A stretch of DNA of 36,876 bases from Deltaproteobacteria bacterium (GTDB taxonomy: Bacteria > Myxococcota_A > UBA796 > UBA9615), in the NCBI GenBank assembly GCA_023954745.1, contig JAGSHC010000031.1:1-36876 (forward strand), read 5' to 3'. Position 1 is the stretch's first letter. Each line of letters begins with the position of its first letter. The notes beneath the pieces were generated by a model that ran no database searches, had not been told where the DNA came from, and was given only the letters and a program-made list of their open reading frames with translations. Shown here piece after piece: positions 25,726-36,876 of this stretch. Position numbers and translations under genes: made by a program.

Positions 25726-27327
25726 GTGGCAGACGACTCCAATGACGGCTCTCCCGGCTCGCGCCTCAGGGATGGCGCGCGCGCGGCCCGGTTTCTCGTG
25801 GGACAGCTGCGATCCCGAGCCTGGACCGTCGACGATCGACTGACCGCGGCTGCCCCGGAGCGCAAGCCGTCCGTGCTCCTGGTGAAGACTCCTCCGTGGG
25901 ACACCCGCCTCGCGCCCCTCGGGATCAACTACCTGAGCCGCTACCTGCGCACCCACGGCGTCGACGCGCCCGTCTGGGATTGCAACATCGACACCTACCT
26001 GCGCTTCCGCATGGACCAGAAGCAGCTCTGGGACATGGAGGAAGCGGTCTTCTGGTTCACGCCCGAGCGTGTGGCAGAGGTCTTCAACCACGAGTGCGAC
26101 ATCGTCGCCCGCCGCATCATCGAGGCAGACACTCCCTACGTCGGCTTCAGCCTGACGATGGAGGGCATCCAGTTCGCGAAGCTGGTCACGGACCGCATTC
26201 GTCGCGACGCGCCGGACAAGATCATCGTGATGGGTGGGCCCGGAGTGGCGTTCCCGGAGTTCCGCGCGCTCTTCCCGCGCGGGGCGGTGGACCTCTTCGT
26301 GGTGGGCGCCGGCGAGGAGGCCCTCCGGCTCATCGTCACTCAGGGAGTCAAGCCAGACGGCACCGCGCAGCACGGGCGCCTTCCGGACACCCTCCAGATG
26401 TGGCGGGATGAGCCCGACCACCCCGACTGCCCTCTCTGCATCAGCCACCCCGTCACTCCTCAGCAGTTCGAGCACCCGGACTTCGAGGGCATCGACCTGT
26501 GCAAGTACAGCGGGCGCGACCACATCGCTCTGATCATGGGTCGCGGCTGCTTTCGGTCGTGCGCCTTCTGCTCCGACAAGCCCGACCAGGGGAAGTACCG
26601 CGCCTTCGACTTCGAGAAGCTGATGCAGGCCATCGCCTTCTACAAGGAGCACTACTGGATCGGCGGGATCACCTGGAACGACTTGATCCTCAACGGGAAC
26701 ATCAACCAGCTCGAGCGGTACTGCGACGTGCTCTTGGAGAACAACGTCGACCTCGTCTGGGATGGTCAGGCCACCGCGCACCGCGTGATGAACAAGCGCC
26801 CGCACCTCTTCCACAAGATGGCGGACGCCGGCTGCACGGACCTCACCTACGGTCTCGAGTCGTTCAACAACGACGTGCTCGCCATTATGCGCAAGGGCTA
26901 CACCGAGGATGTCGCGGTCCACACCCTGCGCAACACCAAGGCCGCCGGGATGGTCACGGGGATCAACATGATCTGCGGCTTCCCCGGCGAGACGGAGGCG
27001 CAGTTCCAGCACACCCTGGACGCCCTCGAAGAGCATCGAGACGACATCGATCGCGTCACCTCGCTCAGTGTCTGCGCGGTGGTGCCCGGCTCTCCGCTGT
27101 GGACCGAGCACGCCAAGTTCGGCATCCAGCGTCCCAAGCCTGGCCACTATCACGAGTGGGAGACCCTGGACGGCACGAACACGCTGCCCGTGCGGATCGA
27201 CCGTCACGCGCGCATGAAGGCCCGGGTCGCTGAACTGGGGCTCAGTGCAGTGATTCAGAGCACCGACGAGTTCGACCCGGACGTGCGGGCGGAGCTCGCG
27301 CGGAAAGAAGCCCTCACGATGCGTTGA
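25726..27327 (+). CDS. B12-binding-domain radical SAM enzyme
   Basis: 533 residues from a GTG at 25726. An N-terminal cobalamin-binding-type Rossmann domain (~48-210) includes VLLVKTPPWDT, LGINYLSRYLRTHGVD, IIVMGGPGVAFPEFR and the GAGEEAL turn (194-200). The radical SAM barrel follows, with GRGCFRSCAFC (C275, C279, C282: the CxxxCxxC ligands of the [4Fe-4S] cluster). Later motifs are typical too: TYGLESFNNDVLAIMRKGY and GINMICGFPGETEAQF. Such enzymes use SAM and usually cobalamin for methylations or other C-C chemistry on lipids, cofactors or natural products. The N-terminal ~45 residues are extra. Substrate unknown; it stands alone on the plus strand, 36 bases before an Asp-linker lipoprotein gene. 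Confidence 0.92.
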   Translation: MADDSNDGSPGSRLRDGARAARFLVGQLRSRAWTVDDRLTAAAPERKPSVLLVKTPPWDTRLAPLGINYLSRYLRTHGVDAPVWDCNIDTYLRFRMDQKQLWDMEEAVFWFTPERVAEVFNHECDIVARRIIEADTPYVGFSLTMEGIQFAKLVTDRIRRDAPDKIIVMGGPGVAFPEFRALFPRGAVDLFVVGAGEEALRLIVTQGVKPDGTAQHGRLPDTLQMWRDEPDHPDCPLCISHPVTPQQFEHPDFEGIDLCKYSGRDHIALIMGRGCFRSCAFCSDKPDQGKYRAFDFEKLMQAIAFYKEHYWIGGITWNDLILNGNINQLERYCDVLLENNVDLVWDGQATAHRVMNKRPHLFHKMADAGCTDLTYGLESFNNDVLAIMRKGYTEDVAVHTLRNTKAAGMVTGINMICGFPGETEAQFQHTLDALEEHRDDIDRVTSLSVCAVVPGSPLWTEHAKFGIQRPKPGHYHEWETLDGTNTLPVRIDRHARMKARVAELGLSAVIQSTDEFDPDVRAELARKEALTMR

Positions 27328-30205: not shown

Positions 30206-32194
30206 ATGCCTCAGCAGAGCGACCCGGCCCGGCCCGATCGAGCGCGCGCCCTCGCGGTGTTGGGTGTGGTTGCGCTCACTGCCGCTCTGAATGCGCCGGC
30301 CCTCGCCCGTTGGTTCGACAATCCCGACGACTGGATTCACCTCGCCCAGGCCCAGGCCGTCCTCGCTGGTGACCCCGGGGTCCTGGGGCGAGTCCTGGTC
30401 GGGGACCCCGGTCTCGCCTCGCTCCGTCCGGTGCCGAAGCTCTTCTGGCTAGTCGACTACGCCGTGTGGGGCTGGTCCGCGGGCGGCTACTTCCTCACCA
30501 ACCTGCTGCTCCTCTGCGCGTTGACCGCTGGGGTCGCCGCTCTGGTGGCCCGAGTCACGGAGTCCGCTGGAGCCGGGGTCGCTGCGGCGTCCCTCGTCGG
30601 ACTCTCCGTCGCCACGAACCAGCCCATGTACTACCTCGCGGCGCGGGACGACCTGCTCGCGGCGGTCTTCAGCGTGGGGGCGCTCCTCGCTTGGGAGCGG
30701 GGCAGGGAGCGCCTGCGTGGGCGCTCCCTCGCCGCGGCGCTCACGCTGTTCGCGCTGCTGTGCAAGCCCTCGGGAATCCTGATTCCAGTGGCGATGCTGG
30801 CCCTCGATCCGCGGGGGGGACTGCGCGCGCGTCTGGGTCGGCTGGCCCCGGTGCTCGCCGCCGTCGGTCTTTACGGCGTGATGCTCGTGGCAGCCATCGG
30901 CCTCGATCTCTCGAGACTGATGGCTGGCGGCGCCCCCTGGCAGCCGCTCGTCGCCCTCAAGAACCTCGTGCTGCCGGTGGTGCTGCCCAGCCTCGCTCGC
31001 TCAGGTCGCGCCCCTTCGCTCGTGCACGACCTGCCGCGCCTCATCGCCCTCTCCCTCGTCGTCATCGCCTCACTGCGGACCTCGACGGACCGGCTTACCG
31101 GCGCGGGGCTGGTGGTGTGTGCGTCGGGCGCCTTGATGCACCTGCCGTTCCTGGGCACGGCCGAGTTCGTCCTTCAAGACAGCGGCCGCTACTTGCTCCT
31201 GGTGGTGGCAGGGGTTGGAATCGCCGTCGGCGGAGCGCTCGGGCGCATGCCCTCCACCGCGCGCAAGCCTCTCGTCTGGTCAGTCGTGGCCGCCAGCGTG
31301 TTTGGCTTCGCCCTCGGCGCTCTCCCTGGCCTCAGCAAGGACCTCGGCGCCAGTCGCGCGCTCTTCGAGAGCCTGACGGCGGAGCGGGACGCCGGCCACG
31401 GGATGGACGAGGTGTTCGTGGGCATCTCGTTGCCCGAGCGCGGGCTGCTCAGCTTCGTGACCTCGGAGGCCCTCGCGCGCGCACTGGCGGGGAGCCCCCG
31501 CTCCTTCATGCAAGGAACCGGCGCGTTGCTGCTTCCTTTGGGAGACCACGGCGAGATTCGGCTGTCCAAGGAGCGATTCCAGTCATCCCAGGTGGGCAAC
31601 GGCACGCTGTTGGTGGACCGGGGAGCGCTGCGGCCGACCTTCACGAGGGTCACCACTCCTCCCCCAGCCCGCGGCGAGGACCGAACCCTCGCTCTCGGCG
31701 CCGGATGGGGCTTTCAGCCGGACCCGCAGTGGCGCGCCACGCCCCCTCCCGTCGTGACCGACGACGGCGTCACAGTGCAGACACGCTCAACGCTGTCGTG
31801 GATCTCCCTGGGCCGCACCCTGTCGGCGATGGTGGTCCCGCCCAGTCATCTTGGGCGGTCGATCGAGCCCCTGGCCTCGTCCAGTGTGTGTGCCATCGAG
31901 CTCTCCCTGACGCTTGCCTCCGCGGCCGCTTCGCGAGGCCCCCGGGCCGCCCCGGGGACGCCAAAGCAGTTCGCGATGGTGATGTTCTCGGGGGACCAGA
32001 CCCCGGCTCACCCTGCGGATCACGCCCTCGTCGTGCCCCTCGGCGACACGAGGGACCGCCAGACCGTGCGGCTCGAGCTGGACTCCAGCCCGGGCTGGGC
32101 CGCGGTGCCGGAGATTCGCTGGCTGGGCCTGATGCCATCCAGCGTGCCGGCCCATGTGACAATCCATGAGCTCCGCCTGGTTGGCTGCCGCTGA
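30206..32194 (+). CDS. Multi-pass membrane protein, GT-C glycosyltransferase-like
   Basis: 662 residues. The N-terminal ~400 residues hold about ten transmembrane helices, with an acidic motif DNPDDWIHL (38-46) in the first extracytoplasmic loop. This matches the position of the catalytic acidic residues of GT-C (PMT/ArnT-like) enzymes that use polyprenyl-phosphate sugars. A second loop motif, YYLAARDDLLAAVFS (~142-156), fits the conserved helix pattern of the same group. The C-terminal ~270 residues are a soluble domain, probably periplasmic, with beta-rich character. Converges (31-base gap) with the epimerase and radical SAM-GT2 unit, so the three may serve the same glycan. Donor and acceptor unknown. 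Confidence 0.65.
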   Translation: MPQQSDPARPDRARALAVLGVVALTAALNAPALARWFDNPDDWIHLAQAQAVLAGDPGVLGRVLVGDPGLASLRPVPKLFWLVDYAVWGWSAGGYFLTNLLLLCALTAGVAALVARVTESAGAGVAAASLVGLSVATNQPMYYLAARDDLLAAVFSVGALLAWERGRERLRGRSLAAALTLFALLCKPSGILIPVAMLALDPRGGLRARLGRLAPVLAAVGLYGVMLVAAIGLDLSRLMAGGAPWQPLVALKNLVLPVVLPSLARSGRAPSLVHDLPRLIALSLVVIASLRTSTDRLTGAGLVVCASGALMHLPFLGTAEFVLQDSGRYLLLVVAGVGIAVGGALGRMPSTARKPLVWSVVAASVFGFALGALPGLSKDLGASRALFESLTAERDAGHGMDEVFVGISLPERGLLSFVTSEALARALAGSPRSFMQGTGALLLPLGDHGEIRLSKERFQSSQVGNGTLLVDRGALRPTFTRVTTPPPARGEDRTLALGAGWGFQPDPQWRATPPPVVTDDGVTVQTRSTLSWISLGRTLSAMVVPPSHLGRSIEPLASSSVCAIELSLTLASAAASRGPRAAPGTPKQFAMVMFSGDQTPAHPADHALVVPLGDTRDRQTVRLELDSSPGWAAVPEIRWLGLMPSSVPAHVTIHELRLVGCR

Positions 32195-32225: not shown

Positions 32226-33242
32226 TCAGTCGATGCCGAGCAGCCGCTTCAGGCCCACTTCGGGACCGGTCGTGGGAGCCCACCCGTAAGCCGCAGTCGT
32301 CGCAGAGACGTCGGTCACGAAGACCTTCTGGTCGCCAGAGCGCTCGTCGAGGAAGCTCATGTTGGCCGTCTTCCCGCTCAGCCGCTCCAGAGCGCGCACC
32401 ACCTCGAGGAGCGAGCGCGAGCTGGCCGCGCTCCCCCCGACGTTGAGGGTGCAGCCCACCGTGGGAGCCGGTCCGTCGACGATGCGCAGGTACAGGTCGA
32501 CGAGGTCGTCCACGAACAGCATGTCGCGGGTCGTCTTGCCGTCGCCGAAGATGCGCAGCGGCAGGCCCTCGGTGACGGCCTTGCCGAACCACGCCACCCA
32601 GCCCTGGTCTTCTTGCTGGCTCTGGCGGGGTCCGTAGATGCACGAAGCGCGCAGGACGACGGTCTCCATCCCCCAGGTGCGGGCGGCGTCGCGGAAGTAG
32701 GCCTCGCCGGTGCCCTTGCTGACTCCGTAGGGGGTCTGCGGGTCGAAGGGGCGGTCGTTGCCGATGCCCTCGGGCATTCCGATGAGGCGGAGGCGGTCGC
32801 CGGCGGGATCGGGCTCGAAGCCGAGGTCTTCCAGTCCGCCGTAGACCTTGTTGGACGACATGTAGAGGCAGCGTGCCTTGGGGCAGAAGCGCCGCGCCGC
32901 CTCGATGACGTGAAAGGACCCAAGGGCGTTCACCGCGAAGTCGCGGGCGGGGTCCTCCATCGACCAGGTCACGGCGACCTGAGCAGCCAGGTGGTAGACG
33001 GCATCGAGGGGTGCCGCTTCGCAGTGACGGCCGAAGGCGGCTCGGACAAAGTCGCCGTCGACGATGTCGCCGATCTCGGTGTGCAGCGCGCCGCCGAGCT
33101 GGCGGGTCGCATCGAGGCGCTCGGTGGAGCCGGGTCGGGACAGGTCGTCGATCACCACGACTTCGTCGCCGCGGGCGAGCAAGGCGCGGACCAGGGTCGT
33201 CCCGATGAAACCAGCCCCGCCGGTGACCATGATGCGGCTCAT
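32226..33242 (-). CDS. NAD-dependent epimerase/dehydratase, CDP-tyvelose (paratose) 2-epimerase-like
   Basis: 338 residues from the ATG at 33242, which overlaps the stop of the radical SAM-GT2 gene (ATGA) and has GGGGAG upstream. Extended SDR: NAD motif GGAGFIG (8-14), active-site S129/S130 and YGVSK (Y172, K176). Several segments fit the RfbE/Tyv family, which interconverts CDP-paratose and CDP-tyvelose: AQVAVTWSMEDPARDF, YMSSNKVYG (127-135), QEDQGWVAWFGKAV and RSGDQKVFVTDV. This points to a nucleotide-sugar 2-epimerase making a deoxy- or unusual hexose; UDP-glucose 4-epimerase-like activity cannot be excluded. Strict coupling to the fused enzyme suggests a joint glycan pathway. Confidence 0.85.
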   Translation of the reverse strand: MSRIMVTGGAGFIGTTLVRALLARGDEVVVIDDLSRPGSTERLDATRQLGGALHTEIGDIVDGDFVRAAFGRHCEAAPLDAVYHLAAQVAVTWSMEDPARDFAVNALGSFHVIEAARRFCPKARCLYMSSNKVYGGLEDLGFEPDPAGDRLRLIGMPEGIGNDRPFDPQTPYGVSKGTGEAYFRDAARTWGMETVVLRASCIYGPRQSQQEDQGWVAWFGKAVTEGLPLRIFGDGKTTRDMLFVDDLVDLYLRIVDGPAPTVGCTLNVGGSAASSRSLLEVVRALERLSGKTANMSFLDERSGDQKVFVTDVSATTAAYGWAPTTGPEVGLKRLLGID

Positions 33243-35668
33243 CGGGCGGTCTCCCCGGACGTCGTCATGCGCTGCAGCGTGCGCTGCCACCGACAGTGCT
33301 CCATGTCCTGCTCGAACTCCGAGAACGCCTCGCCAACCCACTCGGCGCCTACCCGGCGTCGGCCAAGGAGCTTGCGTCGCTCGTCAAGGGTGCGGGTGGC
33401 CGACGAGGCTCCCGCCGCGAAGCCGCGCAACAGGCCCGCTGGCGAACGTCCACGGCGTGCACCGCGCCACAGATCTGCTGCCAGTTCGAGCGCCAGGGGA
33501 GCAGCCGCTGCCTGCCAATTCTCCCGCGGGAGGGTCTTGAGGAGCATGCGGACACGACCCTGGGCCCAGCGCTCAGCGGCGACGGGGTCCGACAGCGCGT
33601 CGTGCTCGGCGAGCAGCGAGGTGTCCTCGAGCAACTCCACCCCGGGGCCGGCGGCAAACCAGGCCCGGTAGCCGAGGAGCAGCCCGCGTACACCGAGGTC
33701 CGCGTCCGCGAGCTCGAAGGGCAGGTCGGGGTCGAATCCCCCGGAGTCCTCGAGGAGGGCGCGCGAGAAGAGCCCCGCCCGGGAGGAGACGGCGGCGACG
33801 GTTGCGTCGTCGTGGCCCTCCGGCCGCGCGGTGAGCACCCGCCCCCAGCGAGAGACGGAGAGCGCCGAGGACACCGCCGGTGACGAGAGCCCTGCATTCG
33901 CCGCGACGTGCAGGGGAACCGCGAGGGCACCGGCGTCGGGATGGCGTCGGCTGGCGTCCAGGACCGACTCGAGCCAGCCGGGGCGGGGCAGGGCCCCCGA
34001 GTGAAACAGTGCGATCCACCGCCCGGTGCACGCAGGCGCCACGCGGTTGGCCATGGCGGCCAACGGCTCCCCCGGGTCCGCGTCCACGAAGGTCGCCCAG
34101 TCGCAGACCGCGGCGGCCGCCGCTTCGAGGGACGGATCCGAGCGGTCCGCGACGATCACGATCTCGCGGGCCGGGCCCTCCTGAGCGAGCAGGGACTTGA
34201 TGGCCTGCTGCATCCACTCGGCCTGGCCGGCCCGCACGAGCAGTCCCGCGGAGATGCCGGACCCCCCGATCTCGCTGATGGGGATCTGCGGCGCGATGGT
34301 CGTGGGGCGCTCCCGCGTCTCCCAACGCCGGTGGATGCCGTGTACGAAGCTGATGATCTGCTCGGCCTCGAGGGCGTCGGTGCTGACTACGCCGGTGCGG
34401 TAGCCATCGAGGGCGTCGAAGTCGATGTCGCCCTCGGCCAGGCGTCCCTCGGCGATCATCTGGTCGTAGAACCGCGAGCCCGGGAAGGGCACGGCGATGG
34501 TGAACTGCGCCGAGTCCGGGTCGAGCTCGTACGCGAGGTCGAGGGTGCGCTGCATGGTGTCGAGGGTCTCCCCCGGCAGCCCGAACATGAAGGTGAGGTG
34601 GATGGCGACCCCCTGGGCCTTCGCCGCCCTCACCGAGCGACGCACCGCGTCCACGTCCAGGTTCTTCCCGATCTGCTTGAGCCGTGCCGTGTCCGCGCTC
34701 TCGACCCCGTACTTCACTGCCTTCAGCCCCGTGCGGGCGAGGGCTGCGTACTGGTCGGGGTGACAGGTGTCGGCGCGTCCCATGAAGGCCCAAGGAGCGT
34801 TGATCCCGCGGTCTTCGAACGCCTTGATGAGGTCGGCCGTGCGCTTCTTGCCGAGGTTGAACGTGTCGTCGTCGAAGTAGACGGACGCGTAGCCCTGCTC
34901 GAGCAACGAGGCGACTTCGTCAGCGACGGCGGCGGCGGAGCGCACGCGGTACTGATTGTCGCCATAGAGGATCTGTGGCCAGGCGCAGAAGTCGCAGGTG
35001 AAGGAGCAGCCGCGGGAAGCCCACATCTGCACCGAGGGGGCGGGAATTCCGCCGGGCAGATCGTGGTAGCGGTCCATGGGGAAGAGGTGGCGCGCCGGCA
35101 GGGGGAAGTCGTCGAGGTCTTCCTGACTGTGCTTGCGTCCGCCGTCCAGAATCTGGTTGCCTCGCCGCCAGATGAGTCCCGGGATGGCGTCCTTGGGGCC
35201 CTGGGGATCGTCGGCGAGGGTGCGCAGGAGGTCGCGCAACGTCAGCTCGAACTCCCCGACGAGGGTGCCTTCGATGAGCGGCAGCCCGGCCAGGAACTCG
35301 GTCCCGTACAGAGGCTTGTGTAGACCGCCGAGCACGATGGGGCCGGTGTAGCCCGCGTCTTCGCGCAGAGCCGCGACGGTGCGAATGTCTTCGGTGAGGG
35401 ACGGCGTGCTGATCTCCGCCATCACGAACTCGGGGTCGAACGCCTTCACCCGCTCGATGAATTCGGTGCGGCCGATGCGCTCGGCGCACGCGTCGATGGC
35501 CATGACCTCGTGCCCATCCTCCTCCAGAACCGCGGCCGCGTAGCCGAGCAGGAAGGGGAACGGCATATACGGCGACTCAGCCCGCTCCATGTGGGGCCAG
35601 CGAGAACCGGCGCGGACGCCGTACCAGCCGGGGCGGAGCCAAGGCGGATTGGTAAGAAGGACCCTCAT
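33239..35668 (-). CDS. B12-binding radical SAM enzyme fused to a family-2-like glycosyltransferase domain
   Basis: 809 residues from the ATG at 35668 (a longer frame upstream has no membrane or domain features). Domain order: cobalamin-binding-like Rossmann domain (~1-180; VLLTNPPW, LGYAAAVLEEDGHEVMAIDA, GPIVLGGLHKPLYG); radical SAM barrel (~215-450) with ASRGCSFTCDFCAW (C221, C225, C228), YFDDDTFN (264-271) and FMFGLPGETLDTM; then a GT-A-like region (~470-690). The latter shows the GT2 layout: QAIKSLLAQEGPAREIVIVAD, TGRWIALFHSGALPRPGWLE, and GGFDPDLPFELADADLGVRG. The metal-binding DxD expected in the FLDSDxxP position is HSG (556-558), so transfer may be lost or altered. A helical C-terminus (~695-809) follows. 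Coupled to a nucleotide-sugar epimerase by a four-base overlap. Confidence 0.88.
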   Translation of the reverse strand: MRVLLTNPPWLRPGWYGVRAGSRWPHMERAESPYMPFPFLLGYAAAVLEEDGHEVMAIDACAERIGRTEFIERVKAFDPEFVMAEISTPSLTEDIRTVAALREDAGYTGPIVLGGLHKPLYGTEFLAGLPLIEGTLVGEFELTLRDLLRTLADDPQGPKDAIPGLIWRRGNQILDGGRKHSQEDLDDFPLPARHLFPMDRYHDLPGGIPAPSVQMWASRGCSFTCDFCAWPQILYGDNQYRVRSAAAVADEVASLLEQGYASVYFDDDTFNLGKKRTADLIKAFEDRGINAPWAFMGRADTCHPDQYAALARTGLKAVKYGVESADTARLKQIGKNLDVDAVRRSVRAAKAQGVAIHLTFMFGLPGETLDTMQRTLDLAYELDPDSAQFTIAVPFPGSRFYDQMIAEGRLAEGDIDFDALDGYRTGVVSTDALEAEQIISFVHGIHRRWETRERPTTIAPQIPISEIGGSGISAGLLVRAGQAEWMQQAIKSLLAQEGPAREIVIVADRSDPSLEAAAAAVCDWATFVDADPGEPLAAMANRVAPACTGRWIALFHSGALPRPGWLESVLDASRRHPDAGALAVPLHVAANAGLSSPAVSSALSVSRWGRVLTARPEGHDDATVAAVSSRAGLFSRALLEDSGGFDPDLPFELADADLGVRGLLLGYRAWFAAGPGVELLEDTSLLAEHDALSDPVAAERWAQGRVRMLLKTLPRENWQAAAAPLALELAADLWRGARRGRSPAGLLRGFAAGASSATRTLDERRKLLGRRRVGAEWVGEAFSEFEQDMEHCRWQRTLQRMTTSGETAR

Positions 35669-35794
35669 TTCCGGGCCATGGAGTCTAGCCCATGGTCCCC
35701 GACATTCGCCGAGACAGTGACCAGGGCGTACCGGCGCACCCCCGGGAGGGAGCTCACCTCTGCTAAAGACGTCGGGTCGCGATTGGAGACCCTG

Positions 35795-36595
35795 GTGCAA
35801 AAGTCCGCGTGGTTGCTGAGCTTCGCAATGCTGTGTACAGCCTGTAGCCCCGGGGGGCGCGGTGGCGGGAGCGGCTTCAGCAGTGACGACGACGACTCCG
35901 GTTCGGACGACGACGACTCCTCCTCCCCTGACGACGACGACGCGACGAGCGACGACGACGACGCGACGAGCGACGACGACGACGACGCGACGAGCGACGA
36001 CGACGACGCGACGAGCGATGACGACGACGCCACGAGCGATGACGACGACGCCACGAGCACCGGATACCCCTGGGAGGGCGACGCCTTCTGCCTCGACTGG
36101 AGCTCAGTCACCTGGGTGAGTCCCTCCGCCGGGGTGGTCACGACGCTGAGCGGCCTCGGCTTCAACGTCACCGACTCGCCGCTGCTGCTCTCGCCCCTGT
36201 CCGTCGTGGGATCGACCATCGACGTGAGGCTCGCGGCGGCGACGGCGAACACGTGCAACCAGGACATCTCCCTATCTACCGCCGACGAGTCGGGGTCCTG
36301 GAGCGAGCCCACCTTCGACTTCGGGCCGACCGACCTCACCTTGCCCCTCGTGGTTGGCTCGGTGTCCCTCTACGACGTCGCGTTCGACGGTGACATCAGC
36401 AGCACGGGCACCCAGATCACCGGTTCATCCATCGAGGGCGAGCTGCAAGTCCCCAGCCTCGCGTCCTCGGCCTGTACCTTTGTCCTCACGTGCTTCCCAT
36501 GCTCGGGCGACGCGACCGCCGACTGCATCGACCTGGACGTCCAGAACGCCACGTGGAACAACGTCGGCGCCGGTCCGCTCCTCTCCGTCCCCTGA
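35795..36595 (+). CDS. Lipoprotein with Asp-rich linker, paralogue of the 27364 gene
   Basis: 266 residues from a GTG at 35795, chosen because GGAG lies six bases upstream and the signal segment begins at once. Signal WLLSFAMLCTAC gives a lipidated C17; the Cys at -3 is unusual for a lipobox. Residues 31-88 are DDDDSGS/DDDDATS units. The C-terminal domain (~90-266) matches the 27364 protein in several segments (SVTWVSPSAGV, SPLSVVGSTIDVRLAA, CFPCSGDATADCID) and likely has the same fold. Twelve bases before the next Asp-linker lipoprotein gene, so they form an operon. The 126-base divergent gap to the radical SAM-GT2 gene shows no clear promoter. Function unknown. Confidence 0.8.
   Translation: MQKSAWLLSFAMLCTACSPGGRGGGSGFSSDDDDSGSDDDDSSSPDDDDATSDDDDATSDDDDDATSDDDDATSDDDDATSDDDDATSTGYPWEGDAFCLDWSSVTWVSPSAGVVTTLSGLGFNVTDSPLLLSPLSVVGSTIDVRLAAATANTCNQDISLSTADESGSWSEPTFDFGPTDLTLPLVVGSVSLYDVAFDGDISSTGTQITGSSIEGELQVPSLASSACTFVLTCFPCSGDATADCIDLDVQNATWNNVGAGPLLSVP
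35885..36058 (+). repeat. Asp-rich coding repeat, 21-bp units (DDDDATS)
   Basis: Encodes residues 31-88. Several consecutive units follow a 21-bp period (four GAC, then GCG or GCC, ACG, AGC), with one 24-bp unit having five Asp. Confidence 0.88.
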
Positions 36596-36607
36596 CCCTG
36601 GAACCTC

Positions 36608-36876
36608 ATGCGCCTTCACACCCTGCTTCTTCTTCTCCTCCTCTCCCTCGCCGTCGGCTGCGGCACTTCGGGGCGTCTCGGCGGCGACCGGAGCAGTGAC
36701 GACGACGACTCTGCCGCGGGGAGCGACGACGACGACGCCGCGGGGGACGACGACGACGCCGCGGGGGACGACGACGACGCCACGGGCGACGACGACGACG
36801 CCACGGGCGACGACGACGACGCCACGGGCGACGACGACGACGCGACGGGCGATGACGACGACGCCACGGGCGACGA
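36608..36876 (+). CDS. Asp-linker lipoprotein, 5' part only (cut by window edge)
   Basis: Starts at the ATG 36608, twelve bases after the previous stop. The 89 complete codons encode the lipoprotein signal MRLHTLLLLLLLSLAVGC (C18), closely like LLSLAVGC in the 27364 protein, then GTSGRLGGDRSS and a linker of DDDDAAG and DDDDATG units that runs off the window end with no stop. This is the third member of the paralogous Asp-linker group in the second half of the window and probably carries a similar C-terminal domain beyond the edge. It is co-directional with and probably co-transcribed with the 35795 gene. Confidence 0.8.
   Translation, partial: MRLHTLLLLLLLSLAVGCGTSGRLGGDRSSDDDDSAAGSDDDDAAGDDDDAAGDDDDATGDDDDATGDDDDATGDDDDATGDDDDATGD
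36698..36876 (+). repeat. Near-perfect 21-bp coding tandem repeat (DDDDATG), open at window end
   Basis: After two early irregular units, at least seven consecutive units of GAC-GAC-GAC-GAC-GCC-(GCG/ACG)-GG(C/G) are seen. Low divergence between units suggests recent expansion by slippage or unequal recombination. Confidence 0.9.

Follow-up and report, generated by a model that had tools for sequence, protein, structure and literature searches.

The window analysed here covers positions 1-36,876 of contig JAGSHC010000031.1 (GenBank assembly GCA_023954745.1) from a Deltaproteobacteria bacterium of the phylum Myxococcota_A. On its minus strand, positions 35668-33239 form a single open frame of 809 codons from ATG, and the 809 amino acid product joins a B12-binding-like domain and a radical S-adenosylmethionine (SAM) barrel to a domain of glycosyltransferase (GT) family 2 (GT2) and a helical tail. 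The explanation we favour, with somewhat better than even confidence, is that this is an AprD4/HpnJ/BchE-like radical SAM enzyme of a glycan pathway, and that its fused GT2 domain has been retained as a non-catalytic pseudoglycosyltransferase (pseudo-GT) for docking or acceptor binding. What appears to be new, judged from sequences and models, is a GT2 domain joined to an AprD4/HpnJ-like radical SAM enzyme that is complete in one lineage and kept as a pseudo-GT in another; no paper describing a radical SAM-GT2 fusion turned up in a literature search.

The fusion protein and its orthologues

An earlier sequence-only reading had described one frame joining these four parts, and the Pfam matches, all above the curated cut-offs, bear this out: B12-binding (PF02310) at residues 41-147 with 37 bits, Radical_SAM (PF04055) at 218-379 with 63 bits, Glyco_tranf_2_3 (PF13641) at 486-685 with 38 bits and, overlapping the latter, Glycos_transf_2 (PF00535) at 484-639 with 37 bits. 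The N-terminal B12-binding-like domain and the SAM barrel with CxxxCxxC place the protein in the B12-binding/radical SAM class. The cluster motif is intact as that reading had it, and its cysteines C221, C225 and C228 are invariant among 17 aligned proteins. The features are as follows:

33239-35668, minus: the 809 amino acid fusion, B12-binding-like, radical SAM, putative pseudo-GT2 and helical tail (open frame, Pfam, full-length orthologues)
35069-35668, minus: B12-binding-like N-terminal domain, residues 1-200, Pfam core 41-147 (PF02310; Foldseek matches AprD4, TsrM and OxsB)
34304-35068, minus: radical SAM barrel, residues 201-455 (PF04055; AprD4 6fd2 best in sequence and fold)
34985-35008, minus: CxxxCxxC cluster motif, residues 221-228 (invariant across alignments)
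34259-34303, minus: low-confidence linker, residues 456-470 (predicted local distance difference test, pLDDT, below 50 in the full-length model)
33584-34258, minus: degenerate GT-A domain of GT2 type, residues 471-695 (PF13641/PF00535, model, Foldseek, motif losses)
33995-34003, minus: HSG replacing the metal-binding NDD/DxD, residues 556-558 (alignment with intact relatives)
33686-33709, minus: ADADLGVR, residues 654-661, with the base-position Asp655 retained and the adjacent glutamate changed to alanine (alignment)
33242-33583, minus: helical tail, residues 696-809, common to intact stand-alone GT2 (alignment, model)
33347-33367, minus: tail motif LGRRRVG, residues 768-774, with L768, G769, R771 and R772 invariant in fused and stand-alone copies (alignment)

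The model of the full-length fusion has a predicted template modelling score (pTM) of 0.65, so its arrangement of domains is unreliable.

Full-length homologues of the fusion were found in G001 (75% identical), G004 (67%, on a contig that stops within the tail), G002 (57%) and G006 (43%). G001, G002 and G004 belong to the same family (f1) as the source genome, G000, and G006 to another family of the same order. Fusion-bearing genomes therefore number five in one order, and the f1 fusions span four genomes of three genera. An assembly join of two genes near residue 460 is excluded, as the same fusion is present in all of these genomes, where the sequence-only reading had advised looking for it. 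No further fusion was found at E 1e-75 in a phylum-wide sample of 379 genomes, in which the next matches, from G107 and G112, are radical SAM proteins only; the sample covers one phylum, and unrelated radical SAM-GT2 fusions, or ones outside it, may exist.

Active-site losses in a GT-A domain

An AlphaFold2 model of residues 455-809 was obtained with a pLDDT of 85.0 and a pTM of 0.86, and when compared with the PDB using Foldseek it matched the GT-A enzymes GalNAc-T2, WrtF and SpsA with a probability of 1.00. The GT region therefore has a GT-A fold, and the structure prediction that the earlier reading had named as a check goes in its favour.

The fused GT2 of G006 is complete (VFDGG, LLNDDAEP, SAGHG, YLEDVDL and VRHRG), and the NDD is kept in this fusion and in all stand-alone copies. 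The window protein has HSG at this position, as had been noticed from its sequence, and the four f1 proteins read HSG (G000), HSG (G001), ESP (G004) and QAG (G002). The suggestion that a conserved acid had taken the place of the DxD was rejected on alignment, as these four triads share no consistent one. The histidine of SAGHG is replaced by leucine in G000, G001 and G002 and by arginine in G004, and the glutamate of the catalytic ED pair by alanine in G000, G001 and G004 and by glycine in G002. The VxH histidine, a segment of the donor loop and the glycine on the uridine side are gone in all four; the two histidines and the catalytic-pair glutamate are invariant in the intact relatives. The window domain is thus a GT2 by its GT-A fold, with neither the metal-binding DxD (NDD) nor the catalytic ED pair.

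Asp655, R661 and a minority of the other invariant residues are retained in the four f1 fusions, and the DxDL..R segment is whole in three of them. The sequence-only reading had held that the GGFDP...ADADLGVR end was kept. Both elements are present, GGFDP at residues 643-647 with its FD as in intact GT2s, but the second is incomplete, since the intact relatives have E-D-x-D-L where the window protein has A-D-A-D-L. The likeness to the intact GT2s with NDD and LEDVDL, which share the SpsA-like GT-A fold, lies in the clade, the fold, the helical tail, the FD and the D-x-D-L..R segment; the differences are the missing metal triad, two histidines, catalytic-pair glutamate and donor loop.

We infer from these alignments and the model that catalysis has been lost in the f1 fused GT domain. 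The domain might still be catalytic, without a metal site or with another activated donor, by means of Asp655 and other residues; the fold is intact, the retained aspartate, arginine and DxDL..R segment would fit, and some GT-A families work without a DxD. This is nevertheless quite improbable, because the DxD, the uridine-side glycine, both histidines, the pair glutamate and the donor-loop segment are gone from all four proteins, the metal triads differ among them, and three of the four genomes have an intact homologue at another locus.

A C-terminal motif, EQDMxHCxWQR (window 33270-33311, minus strand, and loci L009 and L011), is conserved in the fusions of G000, G001 and G002 and is absent from the intact G006 fusion and from the stand-alone GT2. 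It is possibly a feature that was acquired along with the loss of catalysis.

Intact relatives, constraint and proposed function

The source genome encodes a stand-alone GT2 (C343, 10923-12128) with NDD, LEDVDL and the same helical tail. The tail had been presented as a further part of the fusion; it is present, but is no fourth independent domain, as it belongs to this GT2 subfamily and recurs, with LGxRRV, in the intact stand-alone GT2. Orthologues of the C343 protein were found in G001 (68%), G005 (58%) and G002 (49%), and the G006 sequence that it matches best is the fused GT domain (48%). Three of the four genomes with a degenerate fusion (G000, G001 and G002) thus have a separate intact GT2. 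No stand-alone GT2 was detected in the 79% complete assembly of G004, and no fusion in the 73% complete assembly of G005. In a tree of GT domains the fused and stand-alone copies form a single clade relative to nine other GT2s of the class (support 100/100). The degenerate fused copies group together (100/100) at the end of a long stem, with 1.47 changes per column.

A 582 amino acid frame in G002 (L059, on C95, 5568-7313, plus strand) links the intact GT2 of that genome to an N-terminal stretch that lacks the cluster cysteines. This stretch weakly resembles the SPASM radical SAM protein found in the sister genomes (E 2e-4 and probability 49 by hhalign), and the protein is possibly a mirror image of the window protein, with a dead radical SAM part and a live GT.

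Identity between the f1 fusions and that of G006 is 55-59% in the radical SAM part and 24-29% in the GT part. The ratio of non-synonymous to synonymous substitution rates (dN/dS), estimated by a counting method with synonymous sites partly saturated, is 0.14-0.35 for the radical SAM part, 0.36-0.57 for the fused GT region and 0.21-0.37 for the stand-alone GT2. The DxD-bearing stretch has 65 positions, of which 11 are invariant in three f1 fusions and 31 in the three corresponding stand-alone copies, while in the tail the counts are 40 and 31 of 114, respectively. Constraint has shifted from the donor site toward the tail.

The faster evolution than in the radical SAM part, the long stem and the variable length of the fused GT domain around residues 680-700 are what would be expected if it were a functionless, passive relic, decaying slowly without harm to the radical SAM part. 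This is unlikely given that the frame is open in four genomes of three genera, the fold is confidently predicted, dN/dS is clearly below 1 and the tail motifs LGRRRVG and EQDMxHCxWQR are conserved. The pattern of constraint is better explained by a role in binding or docking, without catalysis, than by simple decay, but is no proof of it.

For the radical SAM part, the closest solved structure in both sequence and fold is AprD4 (PDB 6fd2), the structure of which includes paromamine, the sugar that it acts on (sequence E 6e-23, profile E 1e-31, template modelling score 0.80 on the target). AprD4 is thought not to use cobalamin. The best NCBIfam family for residues 2-452 is HpnJ (TIGR03471; 191.6 bits, cut-off 577.6), followed by BchE (TIGR02026; 133.1 bits, cut-off 481) and rSAM_AprD4 (NF033070; 112.6 bits, cut-off 500), and membership of all three was rejected, as the scores are far under these equivalog cut-offs. 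AprD4 is a radical SAM 1,2-diol dehydratase of apramycin biosynthesis that acts with the reductase AprD3 (PMC5461906). The window protein shares its B12-binding-like and radical SAM architecture, but AprD4 is only about 25% identical and has no GT domain, and the window offers no aminoglycoside setting; a short-chain dehydrogenase/reductase does adjoin the fusion, but it is epimerase-like and an inconstant neighbour. HpnJ performs the last step in forming the cyclitol ether of bacteriohopanetetrol (BHT), once a GT and a deacetylase have made hopanoid-linked glucosamine (PMC12583986). Its substrate is a lipid-linked glucosamine and its gene lies near that of the GT HpnI, but no hopanoid genes were noticed at the window locus, and the HpnJ model, of 472 positions, has no GT. 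With AprD4 as the nearest structure and HpnJ as the nearest family, the radical SAM part most likely acts on a sugar substrate.

A second B12-type radical SAM protein is encoded in the window (25873-27327, plus strand), for which the best NCBIfam family is rSAM_ocin_1 (86 bits, below the cut-off). A close homologue is encoded in the vicinity of the fusion in G002 (L039, 4547-6085) and, it appears, in G001 as well.

On the explanation that we favour, the ancestor would have had a working GT2 in the fusion, like that of G006 today. In the f1 ancestor the GT part would have been duplicated or split off from the intact fusion, with transferase activity now carried by the separate GT2 gene (C343 in the source genome), and the fused copy would afterwards have lost its donor and metal site while being kept under purifying selection as a non-catalytic domain. 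The radical SAM half probably carries out a radical rearrangement, dehydration or methylation of a sugar on a lipid- or nucleotide-linked glycan, and the pseudo-GT may serve to dock it to the acceptor glycan, the lipid carrier of that glycan or the active GT2. The sequence-only reading had offered reuse of the GT domain for binding. The loss of the site in four orthologues, the lack of a substituting acid and the separate intact homologue speak for this, and binding itself is a prediction. Its other suggestion, an undescribed sugar- or glycolipid-modifying enzyme, is plausible in view of AprD4, HpnJ and the glycan neighbourhood. A single chain that combines radical modification with glycan transfer is a plausible account of the G006 relative, but not of the window protein.

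A specific form of this explanation has the pseudo-GT pairing with the separate intact GT2, so that the complex would couple radical modification and transfer in place of the bifunctional G006 chain. We regard this as doubtful. The degenerate fusion and the stand-alone GT2 co-occur in G000, G001 and G002, one G006 chain holds both parts and both proteins have the helical tail, but the interaction is proposed from this co-occurrence and shared tail, and G004 and G005 each have only one of the two detected in their incomplete assemblies. Slightly better placed, though still a minority view, is an ancestral bifunctional enzyme, intact in G006, whose GT2 half would transfer a sugar and whose radical SAM half would modify that same sugar; in f1 the transfer would have moved to the separate gene and the fused half would dock the enzyme on the glycan or on the separate GT2.

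Several points weigh against a retained, non-catalytic docking domain. The loss of catalysis is read from residues, Asp655 is kept and some GT-A enzymes function without a DxD, while the radical SAM substrate, cobalamin dependence and the partner of the pseudo-GT are proposals. The saturation of synonymous sites affects the dN/dS values. The tree groups the G006 GT domain firmly with neither the fused nor the stand-alone copies (support 55/46, alternatives not rejected), and does not fix the order of events, and there are only five fused proteins.

The pseudoglycosyltransferases VldE and ValL resemble trehalose-phosphate synthases, not GT-A enzymes. In these, likewise, a GT-like fold has been put to a use other than glycosidic transfer (PMC3441724, PMC12041759), but they are catalytic, whereas the window GT domain looks non-catalytic and is fused to a radical enzyme.

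B12-type radical SAM proteins are a recurring component of glycan gene clusters, and for most of them no substrate is known. The fusion to an intact GT2 in G006 links the radical step to one transfer reaction, so a search for the substrate can start from what that GT2 makes or the acceptor that it uses. In f1 a GT domain with a lost active site sits inside the fusion and its intact homologue is encoded separately, and as the intact and degenerate states are both alive in one bacterial order, the order of duplication, split and decay is testable.

The epimerase and the gene neighbourhood

The stop codon of the fusion overlaps the start codon of the next gene in the sequence ATGA:

32226-33242, minus: nicotinamide adenine dinucleotide (NAD)-dependent sugar-nucleotide epimerase, nearest solved relative CDP-tyvelose 2-epimerase (Pfam, PDB search; ATGA overlap)

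Its best PDB matches are 9rl0 (E 6e-64) and 1orr (E 1e-61), with UDP-glucose 4-epimerases trailing at 2e-38. The motifs SNKVYG and YGVSK contain the expected NKVYG and YxxxK, and C2 epimerisation of a cytidine diphosphate-linked sugar is predicted. The CDP-tyvelose 2-epimerase reaction has been described (PMC13098431). The co-translated epimerase had been taken as a clue to function. The overlap and the likeness to CDP-tyvelose 2-epimerase stand, but an orthologue adjoins the fusion only in G000 and G006, and none was found when G001 and G002 were searched, where the gene after the fusion is alpha/beta-hydrolase-like or YceI-like instead. It was therefore rejected as an obligatory partner and is a weak guide to function.

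The genes for a GT2, a PF01663 phosphodiesterase, a SPASM radical SAM protein, the fusion and two epimerases lie together in a single cluster in G006 and are dispersed in f1. The phosphodiesterase is upstream of the fusion in G001 and G004. In the source genome it is on C291 (3576-5192, minus strand), the start of which carries an aspartate-repeat coding stretch nearly identical to one at the end of the window (contig C29), with no exact overlap; from these matching stretches, the gene probably lies just upstream of the fusion here also. G001 has a second locus, made up of the SPASM radical SAM gene, the GT2 and the first epimerase; in G000 a SPASM radical SAM gene with a preceding GT2-containing frame is on C15 and the GT2 with an epimerase on C343. 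A GT2-sugar phosphotransferase fusion adjoins the GT2 in G005 and G002. The first epimerases of G000, G001 and G002 are 53-58% identical to the first of G006, and the window epimerase is 50% identical to the second across its readable part. The gene for the latter (L041, 13464-14700) is frame-disrupted in the assembly past about residue 223, the rest continuing in another frame. B12-type radical SAM genes also have neighbours of this kind in G112 (SPASM radical SAM, sugar phosphotransferase, epimerase and GT2 genes) and in G107 (epimerases and a GT). These gene families point to a lipid-linked surface glycan pathway as the probable setting.

No Rfam families were found in the window. A largely hydrophobic protein of 662 amino acids (30206-32194, plus strand), encoded between the epimerase and a YceI-like gene, had no match in Pfam or NCBIfam. 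In G002, a run of N lies at about 9400-9750 of L059, within a frame resembling oxidases linked to flavin adenine dinucleotide. At the end of the window (35717-36876) and the start of C291 there are genes for secreted proteins with long aspartate-coding runs (GACGACGAC...), which recur in the window and stand at the contig end, and these repeats probably broke the assembly.

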